From Pseudanabaena galeata CCNP1313 (GTDB taxonomy: Bacteria > Cyanobacteriota > Cyanobacteriia > Pseudanabaenales > Pseudanabaenaceae): a stretch of 64,000 nucleotides of DNA. The DNA lies in contig NZ_CP112874.1 in NCBI RefSeq assembly GCF_029910235.1, positions 1,302,001 through 1,366,000 of the forward strand, read 5' to 3'. The position numbers and the translations under genes were made by a program. The notes under the pieces are model-generated. The model was not told the origin of the DNA and did no database searches. It saw only the letters and a program-made list of their open reading frames with translations. Below are positions 50,126 to 53,348 of this stretch, piece by piece (positions within the stretch are counted from its first letter, which is position 1; each line of letters opens with the position of its first letter).

Positions 50126-50182
50126 CCATCATAAATTTTTAAAAAGTATGGCGAAGCCATACTTTTTAAAAATTTATGATGG
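50126..50182. terminator. long hairpin between pyrG and dnaE
   Basis: Perfect 27-bp arms (CCATCATAAATTTTTAAAAAGTATGGC) around GAA, 30 bases past pyrG and 43 bases before the dnaE start. It probably separates the two transcripts. Confidence 0.7.
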
Positions 50183-50225: not shown

Positions 50226-53200
50226 ATGACTGGATTTGTTGGGCTGCACGTTCATACTGAATATAGTTTGCTTGATGGGGCAAGCCAAATCCCTGATATG
50301 GTCAATCGCGCCGTCGAACTGGGAATGCCTGCGATCGCCTTAACCGATCATGGGGTGATGTATGGAGCGATCGAGCTAATCAAGATCTGCAAATCTAAAG
50401 GAATTAAGCCAATCATTGGTAATGAAATGTATGTCCTCAATGGCGACATTACCATCCAGTATAAAAGAGAAGATAAAAAGAAAAAATATCACCAATGCGT
50501 TCTCGCTAAAGATACGCAGGGTTATCGCAATCTGGTTAAACTCACCACCATTTCCCATTTGCAAGGCTATCAAGGCAAAGGGATTTTCGCCCGTCCTTGC
50601 ATTAATAAAGAATATTTACTGCAATATAAAGAAGGCTTAATGCTCACTTCTGGTTGCTTAGCAGGAGAAGTTCCTCAAGCAATTATGAATGGTGATCCGA
50701 AACTCGCGAGAGAAGTGGCGGCTTGGTATAAAGAACATTTTGGCGATGATTATTATCTAGAAATTCAAGATCATGGTTATCCTGAAGATCGCGTTGTAAA
50801 TGTGGAAATTTGCAAGATTGCCAAGGAACTAGAGATCAGAGTAATTGCCACAAACGACTCCCACTTTACCTCTTGCATGGATGTGGAAGCCCATGATGCA
50901 TTACTCTGCATCCAAACTGGCAAATTAATTTCTGATGAAAAGCGTCTGCGTTATAGCGGAATGGAATATTTTAAATCCTATGATGAGATGCGGCAGTTAT
51001 TTCGGGATCATTTGGAAGATGATGTGATCGAAGAAGCTCTAGCGAATACTCTCCATGCTGCCGCCAAAGTTAAGCCCTACGACCTCATGCGCGATCCCCG
51101 TGCTGCGGATTATCCCATTCCTGAAGGGCATACTGCCGATACTTATTTTGAAGAGGTGACATGGCAAGGCTTACTCCAAAGATTTAATGCCAAGACCCAT
51201 GCCGAGATTTCTGCCGAATATCAAGAGCGTTTGCGTTTTGAGCTAGGCATCATTATGCAGATGGGTTTCTCTACTTACTTTTTGGTGGTTTGGGACTACA
51301 TCAAATACGCAAGAGACAAGCAGATTCCTGTGGGGCCAGGACGGGGTAGTGCCGCAGGTTCTTTGGTTGCCTATTCTTTGGGAATTACGAATATTGACCC
51401 GATCCATCATGGACTTCTGTTTGAAAGATTTCTCAATCCTGAACGGAAGTCGATGCCTGATATTGATACGGACTTCTGTATCGATCACCGTAGTGAATTG
51501 ATTGATTATGTAACACAACGCTATGGACAAGAACGAGTTGCTCAAATTGTCACCTTTAACCGCTTAACCTCTAAGGCAGTTCTCAAGGATGTGGCGCGAG
51601 TACTAGATGTGTCCTACAGTGAATCCGACAAAATGGCGAAGATGATTCCTGTTTCTCGCGGTAAGCCAGCCAAGCTGAAGGTGATGATTTCCGAGGAGTC
51701 CCCTGCACCCGAATTTCGCGATCGCTACAAACAAGATGCGAAAGTATTTGAATGGCTGGACATGGCGATGCGTATCGAAGGGGTGAACAAAAGTTCAGGT
51801 GTTCACGCGGCGGGTGTGGTGATTTCACCATTTCCATTGGATGAGGTTGTACCATTGCAGCGTAGTAATGAAGGTCAAGTGGTCACGCAATACACGATGG
51901 AGGATTTGGAATCCCTTGGCTTGCTAAAAATGGACTTCTTAGGACTACGAAACCTGACAACCATTGAGCATACGAGTAAGCTAATTCGCAACAATCAAGA
52001 TCCAAATTTCCATATTGATGCGATCGCCCCCGACATGTCTACGGAGGCAAATCAAAAAACCTATAAGCTATTGGAAAAAGGTGATCTAGAAGGAGTCTTC
52101 CAATTAGAATCTTCAGGCATGAAGCAGATCGTCAAAGATCTCAAGCCTTCCAATATTGAAGATATTTCTTCAATTCTGGCACTTTATCGTCCTGGTCCAT
52201 TGGATGCTGGGCTAATTCCAAAGTTTATTAATCGTAAGCATGGCAGAGAAGCGATCGAGTATCAGCACCATACCTTAGAACCAATTCTAAATAATACCTA
52301 TGGAGTATTATGCTTAGCTAAAGGAACTTTAATTGCGAAACCTGATGGCACAAGCACACCAATTGAGAATATCCGTAAGGGTGATGTAATTCTCTCGTCT
52401 GATGGTAAGCGCGTATGGTCAGCAAAGGTTGCAAAGCAATGGCAAAGTGGTATCAAGTCCATTGTCAAAATCACGCTATCAACAGGTACAGAGATTTACT
52501 GTACGCCAGAACATCGCTTTCTCACACCACAGGGAGATCAGTTTGCCCATGAGTTAAAACCTCTAAATGAAACTGGAGACACTATCACTTATAGATCATT
52601 CCTTTTTGAATTAGATTCTAATTCCTTGAAAGATGTTCGTCCTGTATTTGTGGCATCTATTGAAGACTGGGGAACTAGTGAATGTTTCGACATTGAAATG
52701 GTAGACCAAACCGCTCCCTATTTCTTGGCAAATGGAATTGTTACTCATAATTGCTATCAAGAGCAAATTATGAAAATGGCGCAGGATTTGGCAGGATATT
52801 CCCTCGGCGCTGCGGATTTATTGCGTCGGGCGATGGGTAAAAAGAAGCCTGAAGAAATGGAAAAGCAGCGTTCTATTTTTCTTGATGGTTGTGCTAAGAA
52901 TGGAATTAGGTCGGAGATTTCTAATGATCTATTCGATCAGATGGTGATTTTTGCAGAGTATTGTCTCAGTTACGATACTTTGGTGCGAACTGTCGAATAT
53001 GGTTTGATGCCCATCGGTAAAATCGTAGAGCATCAAATCGAATGTCAGGTTTACAGTGTTGATGAGAATGGCTTTGTCTATACCCAATCCATTGCCCAGT
53101 GGCACGATCGCGGTAATCAAGAAGTCTTTGAATATGAGCTAGAAAATGGCGATCGCCTTAGAGCTACTAAGGATCACAAGTTCATGACTCTTGATGGTGA

Positions 53201-53276
53201 GATGCTAGCGATCGATGAGATTTTTGAGAAAGGGTTAGAGTTGCTCTGTTACAATAATCTAAAATTGTGGAACTAA
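50226..53276 (+). CDS. dnaE: DNA polymerase III alpha, N-terminal half, with an internal mini-intein and an N-terminal split-intein half
   Basis: The replicative polymerase subunit, here only the N-half, as in other cyanobacteria. PHP domain: [13 protein letters not shown] (about 7-19). Catalytic region: [10 protein letters not shown] (about 369-378) and [13 protein letters not shown] (about 407-419). Extein order: residues 1-695, then 843-912; the polymerase continues in a separate gene after FAEY. Residues 696-842 are a contiguous mini-intein between YGVL and CYQEQ. Residues 913-1016 are the split intein N-half ([17 protein letters not shown]... ending KLWN). Splicing with a DnaE-C precursor from another locus is needed for a working enzyme. 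Confidence 0.96.
52311..52751 (+). other. mini-intein in dnaE (147 residues)
   Basis: It starts with cysteine ([13 protein letters not shown], block A), has block B as [11 protein letters not shown] (TxxH), block F as [20 protein letters not shown], and ends VTHN followed by the extein +1 cysteine. Penultimate His and terminal Asn are both present, so all class 1 splicing residues are there. No homing endonuclease domain. The insertion site is in the conserved YGVL/CYQEQ region of DnaE. Confidence 0.95.
52962..53276 (+). other. DnaE split intein, N-terminal half
   Basis: 104 residues starting [20 protein letters not shown], with [10 protein letters not shown] (block B, TxxH) and ending [19 protein letters not shown] before the stop. 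This is the well-known cyanobacterial DnaE IntN found in Synechocystis and Nostoc. It must meet its IntC, attached to DnaE-C, to splice in trans. The last few residues (after LELL) are the least conserved part. Confidence 0.96.
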
Positions 53277-53283
53277 AGTAACC

Positions 53284-53348
53284 AGATCCCCGACTTTTTT
53301 TGTGAACTTGTCAATTCCCTTTGATAGCAAAGAAAAAGTCGGGGATCT
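53284..53348. repeat. inverted repeat downstream of dnaE-N
   Basis: AGATCCCCGACTTTTT and its inverse, 16-bp arms, separated by about 33 bases. A type of hairpin often seen in cyanobacterial gaps. It is followed by AAGGAAAA direct repeats at 53363-53385. Confidence 0.75.

Follow-up and report, generated by a model that had tools for sequence, protein, structure and literature searches.

A two-intein dnaE-N gene and the probable use of its split-intein 3' end as a cassette insertion site in Pseudanabaena

The DnaE split intein has long been seen as a tool and as an oddity, and DnaE proteins with several inteins are known from Trichodesmium. Two further kinds of described system resemble the locus reported here. 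Integrons hold compact cassettes of one or two genes, carry toxin-antitoxin payloads and have their newest unit at the anchor end. Genomic islands integrate in the 3' ends of essential genes, as exemplified by the ICE at prfC and by islands at tRNA genes.

We analysed a 64,000-nucleotide stretch of Pseudanabaena galeata CCNP1313 (the window), which contains dnaE-N, the gene for the N-terminal half of DNA polymerase III alpha, and compared this gene with its relatives in other cyanobacteria. We consider it probable that dnaE-N encodes a precursor requiring two splicing reactions and that, in Pseudanabaena, the 3' end of IntN, the N-half of the split intein, is an insertion site for gene cassettes. 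As in the Ssp and Npu split DnaE inteins, IntN and IntC lie on separate genes, and the split and insertion site and the catalytic residues are equal. In contrast to them, a second, contiguous intein is located 70 residues upstream, and the end of IntN would also be a cassette site within the genus. This second intein (intein 1) shares Cys1, TxxH, the terminal HN, the +1 Cys and the lack of an endonuclease with the Mtu RecA intein and the gp41-1-related class 1 mini-inteins. However, it sits in DnaE, where mini, LAGLIDADG and empty alleles all occur in one genus. The arrays behind dnaE-N resemble those of integrons in their compact cassettes, their toxin-antitoxin payloads and the position of the newest unit at the anchor. 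They differ in that the anchor is a protein-coding split intein, the repeat is a piece of dnaE-N, and no IntI-type tyrosine integrase is found beside the arrays among the PF00589 matches listed.

The two inteins of dnaE-N and the distribution of intein 1

The dnaE-N reading frame (50226–53276, + strand) encodes 1016 amino acids with family matches to the PHP, polymerase and finger domains. Family matches place the PHP and polymerase domains and a part of the finger domain in the first extein part, residues 1–695 (50226–52310, + strand). The initial annotation had proposed a 147-residue contiguous mini-intein at residues 696–842 (52311–52751, + strand), starting with Cys, with a TPEH block and the end VTHN/C. 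This assignment is confirmed by the motifs Cys1 (CLAKG), block B CTPEH, block F ECFDIEM, the end VTHN and the +1 Cys, by the match to the Pfam family Intein_splicing (PF14890; 41.3 bits against a cut-off of 35.8), and by its similarity to inteins of solved structure, the best being gp41-1 (E 1.5e-6) and then Mtu RecA (E 1.1e-5). The family scan of intein 1 returned splicing-type families only, with no endonuclease match, so the description of the pair as compact and endonuclease-free stands as well. The middle extein has 70 residues, as had been noted and as the reading frame bears out (52752–52961, + strand), the first of which is the +1 Cys of intein 1. The remaining 104 amino acids, residues 913–1016 (52962–53273, + strand), are the N-half of the split DnaE intein, again as annotated: the top solved match of IntN is a DnaE split intein with E 2e-45 over residues 1–100, and the insertion is at the conserved DnaE split site AEY/C. 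The E-values of intein 1 and IntN exclude chance. The class 1 splicing residues are all present in both, and, taken as inteins, both belong to known kinds.

Trans-splicing had been made dependent on a gene for IntC-DnaE-C elsewhere in the genome, and this gene is present outside the window (L003:1408–2784). It encodes 458 amino acids with the junction ASN/C and is located on the contig of dnaE-N at about 2,505,069, 1.15 Mb away from dnaE-N. Compared with solved structures, its IntC finds DnaE split inteins, the best at E 9e-13. The three DnaE pieces span positions 2–689, 688–760 and 754–1168 of the model NF005617 (1170 positions), so a cis splice together with a trans splice would restore the complete polymerase. 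Cross-splicing between the two inteins is unlikely because intein 1 and IntN share only 24% identity over 83 amino acids. Since intein 1 is translated in full ahead of IntN, its splicing in cis is likely to come first. Between pyrG and dnaE-N, at 50126–50182, two 27-nt arms form a perfect inverted repeat around a 3-nt loop. Further intein-bearing genes of the same genome (L005, L006/L008, L009 and L012), named by eye, are DnaB-like, GyrB-like with a long insert, DnaX-like with a mini-intein, and ribonucleotide-reductase-like.

Our search of the genus covered 26 genomes including that of the window, in which 25 loci were read, G028 being left out for its weak match. Intein 1 is present as the 147-aa mini form in eight loci and as a 399-aa form in nine, and the site is empty in the other eight; one 399-aa form (L054) has a LAGLIDADG_3 match with E 2e-8. 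Seven empty sites have a common sequence and one ends in IMR, so that the +1 Cys is a residue of the host gene. When the three states are mapped on a tree built from codons 1–695, each requires six changes, at least five of which are forced by well-supported branches. Judged from this tree, the scatter is the pattern expected of intein invasion, loss and decay. In a tree of the splicing domain, the mini forms (L044–L049, L043 and the window) are interleaved with the 399-aa alleles (L050–L058), with at least two forced changes. All eight mini forms are nevertheless equal in length, and this interleaving therefore suggests exchange between mini and endonuclease alleles. Of 362 genomes of the class that lie outside the genus, six hold a clear relative of intein 1, with 52–71% identity. 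The spans in amino acids are about 176 (G124), 313 (G172), 322 (G303), 365 in two frames (G217), 399 with a stop (G271) and 400 (G344). The notion that the strong relatives outside the genus are all endonuclease forms was dropped in view of the span in G124, which therefore appears to have its own shortened form.

Arrays of IntN fragments and payload genes in relatives

The first sign of a further feature at this locus came from the genus search, in which the last third of IntN drew numerous additional hits. At least two matches to IntN residues 41–100 occur in 17 of the 26 genus genomes, as against five of the 150 genomes elsewhere in the class that have any match. With a DNA profile of IntN, we identified 28 stretches 3' of the dnaE-N stop codon in 13 of the 25 genus loci and in none of five other loci of the family. 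These stretches are direct repeats of 62–173 nt, about 80–95% identical to the gene in front of them, and the layout is that of an intact gene followed by repeated units of a payload and an IntN 3' fragment. As a control, 800 kb of G013 and G029 with 598 further ORFs were examined for repeats of a gene's 3' end within 3 kb. Such repeats were found for dnaE-N at 11 of 25 loci and for 9 of the 598 ORFs. Inspected by eye, three of these nine lie in a CRISPR array and two in one duplicated transposase-like stretch, two are paralogue-like and two are repeats of 65–66 nt.

Among 80 named loci, IntN repeats occur in 10 of 18 from the Pseudanabaena group and in none of 62 cyanobacterial loci outside it; the arrays are thus mainly a habit of Pseudanabaena. 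Five genomes outside the genus have two IntN matches, of which G316 and G343 are the only clear cases: the two matches are adjacent pieces of one copy in G046 and G382, and G242 has two IntN copies on two contigs. G316 and G343 represent one genus outside the family. Behind their dnaE-N are UPF0175-DUF3368 and DUF433-DUF5615 pairs, then a 218–219-nt IntN copy (93–95% identical) and then more genes like them. Searches of a literature collection with few subscription papers, directed at such arrays, at toxin-antitoxin genes at dnaE, at toxin-antitoxin comparisons in Pseudanabaena and at inteins, brought up no entry that describes them. IntN fragments also lie off the contig of dnaE-N at L068 5182–5341, L070 1800–1983 and L071 5131–5309 (G016 and G010).

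The payloads are nucleases of Mrr type and Uma2 type, the pairs YefM-YoeB, MazE-PemK, Phd-ParE (the Phd match being below the Pfam cut-off), DUF4160-DUF2442 and PIN_3 with an unnamed antitoxin, as well as an unnamed gene that has a Cytotoxic domain. At 14 of 25 loci, the distance from the dnaE-N stop to the start of a payload is at most 100 nt. Of the 26 payload copies of these families, 20 have an IntN fragment directly behind them, with a gap of –1 to 13 nt for payloads on the + strand. The six copies with no fragment behind are four Uma2, one MazEF and one DUF4160, the four Uma2 being among the six that adjoin dnaE. Where the fragment starts within IntN varies with the payload: at nt 143–144 for MazEF, 144–145 for Mrr (two of three), 168–169 for three intact PIN copies, 183–185 for Uma2 and 181–187 for DUF4160. 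The tail of the intact IntN tracks the payload as well, being of LLCYN type in all six loci with Uma2 first and KI[LI] in all three with Mrr first. One locus, L056, combines the Mrr-type tail, the Mrr-type fragment start and a scrap resembling the last part of Mrr but has no Mrr gene; from these traces, it is best read as a deletion scar. MazEF and PIN copies also occur elsewhere in the genomes without IntN, and around those copies we found no host-gene ends, only repeats of 27–48 nt. The distribution of payloads is not in line with the gene tree: Uma2 requires four changes, a number often matched by shuffled labels (179 of 500).

The genome of the window has a single IntN place, with no cassette and no fragment. 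Comparison of alleles nevertheless marks a recombinant, cassette-type (Uma2-type) end at IntN nt 256–294 (53217–53255, + strand). These 39 positions differ at three sites from the Uma2-bearing loci L044, L050 and L059 and at 15 from the sister genomes L043 and L062, whereas over nt 1–255 the nearest allele is L062 with 17 differences. The switch of affinity falls between nt 235 and 267. We read this end as the recombination footprint of a Uma2-type unit whose payload has been lost; no Uma2 remains were found behind dnaE-N in the window. Directly behind the stop codon, where relatives have their cassettes, the window has a 21-nt inverted repeat, 90% complementary (53284–53348).

Displaced gene ends and a proposed route of insertion

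Each of 33 fragments, with the following 500 nt, was compared with the intact dnaE ends. For about 600 nt, taking in tail, stop codon and payload, five match the intact dnaE end of another genome collinearly at 84–90% identity: G026 with G019 and G015, G017 with G015 and G019, G014 with G029 and G023, G021 with G032 and others, and G010 with G020. What is a fragment in one genome is thus the working gene end in another. The collinear fragments are therefore earlier dnaE ends that a newer insertion has pushed away from the gene. The other 28 have no clean before/after partner among the ends compared.

We propose that intein 1, a mini-intein which would have lost its LAGLIDADG endonuclease, excises in cis and that trans-splicing removes IntN after it has paired with IntC, which is carried by the separate DnaE-C protein. 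IntN alleles, 98–106 amino acids long, are nearly constant up to about residue 92 and highly variable beyond. The region past this residue would leave with the intein, and the 3' end of dnaE-N could be replaced without a cost to the polymerase. As the tail of the split intein is discarded, its replacement should be harmless, and this tolerance would make the end of dnaE-N suitable for insertion. In a review (PMC12702839), the IntN end is described as unique in composition and length among DnaE split inteins. The incoming DNA, whether circular or linear, would consist of an IntN 3' part, a variable tail, a stop codon, a toxin-antitoxin or restriction gene and an IntN 3' fragment, and would recombine by homology within IntN; neither a circle nor another form of such DNA was observed. 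The gene would thereby gain an intact, donor-derived end with the payload directly behind it, the old end would become a downstream fragment with a cassette-specific start, and repeated rounds would build an array whose newest unit adjoins dnaE-N.

A site-specific recombinase encoded elsewhere, recognising a core in the 3' part of IntN, perhaps the HIP1 octamer, and inserting cassettes as integrases do, is an unlikely but more serious alternative than the two considered below. It would account for the restored gene end as in the integrating islands at 3' ends, to which the present locus is similar in that the incoming copy restores the end of the target gene and displaces the old end (5 of 33 fragments). 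Tyrosine integrase genes are present somewhere in all 26 genomes. Several, though not all, fragment starts coincide with HIP1-like octamers. In the window, these are ACGATCGC at IntN nt 143 (53104–53111, + strand), where fragments start near Mrr and MazEF payloads in relatives, and the HIP1 octamer GCGATCGC at IntN nt 188 (53149–53156, + strand), where they start near Uma2 and DUF4160 payloads. Seven of nine payload types have their starts at such octamers against 27% expected (P 0.0024, a comparison chosen after the fact). Counted as raw starts, however, only 14 of 28 are at an octamer. PIN units start at TGAATA, a word also found behind the stop in copies elsewhere, and the fragment starts in G316 and G343, outside the genus, are not at a HIP1 octamer. 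Background on HIP1 octamers and recombination is given in PMC4390886 and PMC6604393.

The switch points vary as well. G013 and G012 have 14 differences over about 4380 sites, seven of which fall in IntN nt 200–252 (P 1e-10 for this interval, which was chosen after the fact). G012 is a metagenome assembly, and the 53-nt patch may therefore stem from assembly; a search for its donor among 24 other alleles and three fragments gave no exact match. The switch points of this pair and of the window differ, which favours homology over a fixed core. Unlike the islands, the units are about 0.5–1 kb long without an integrase of their own, and among the listed matches to PF00589, the sole recombinase family sought, none lies inside an array. 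Homologous recombination inside IntN fits best. Units may owe their origin to chance joins at short shared words and their later spread to homology in IntN.

Still less probable is tandem duplication of the IntN end together with its payload by microhomology, followed by decay and without any exchange between strains. The short shared words at the junctions (TGAATA for PIN, HIP1 for others) and the two Uma2 units in one array of G021 would agree with such duplication. However, neighbouring array units mostly hold different payloads, and the same unit adjoins dnaE in unrelated genomes. The sisters G029 and G032, whose exteins are 95.9% identical, hold different units and differ in payload, in the IntN tail and in the state of intein 1, and the collinear before/after pairs further weaken this explanation. 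That the locus is merely a two-intein dnaE gene with downstream repeats due to noise or assembly error is highly improbable, although the window shows neither repeat nor cassette, given the excess of dnaE-N over the control ORFs and the arrays in the single-contig genomes G013 and G029 and in named records.

With homologous recombination in IntN as the preferred route, the discarded end of a split intein might represent a general, integrase-free and integron-like site of cassette capture, partly tied to HIP1, with the intein explaining the tolerance of the host; we regard the chances of this wider view as even. The DnaE split intein would gain a visible role in genome evolution by giving an essential single-copy gene a coding end that is free and non-essential. 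Toxin-antitoxin genes would have a simple route to spread and stack without a recombinase of their own, with the before and after states in living strains. The natural variation of IntN tails could be a guide to what may be fused at that end, and the junctions could provide a testable case for the old question of what role the HIP1 octamer has in cyanobacterial DNA.

A unit between IntN pieces in G021 (L069) was considered as an insertion at a foreign site. This candidate was dropped because its right flank is found 5.2 kb behind dnaE-N in G029, by which the unit comes from the genome's own array. It is the older part of the dnaE-N array, displaced by about 34 kb and now in reverse orientation, probably through an inversion. 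At L069 4526–8505, Uma2 and a 945-aa ORF lie between the two IntN pieces, about 34 kb from dnaE-N and in the opposite orientation.
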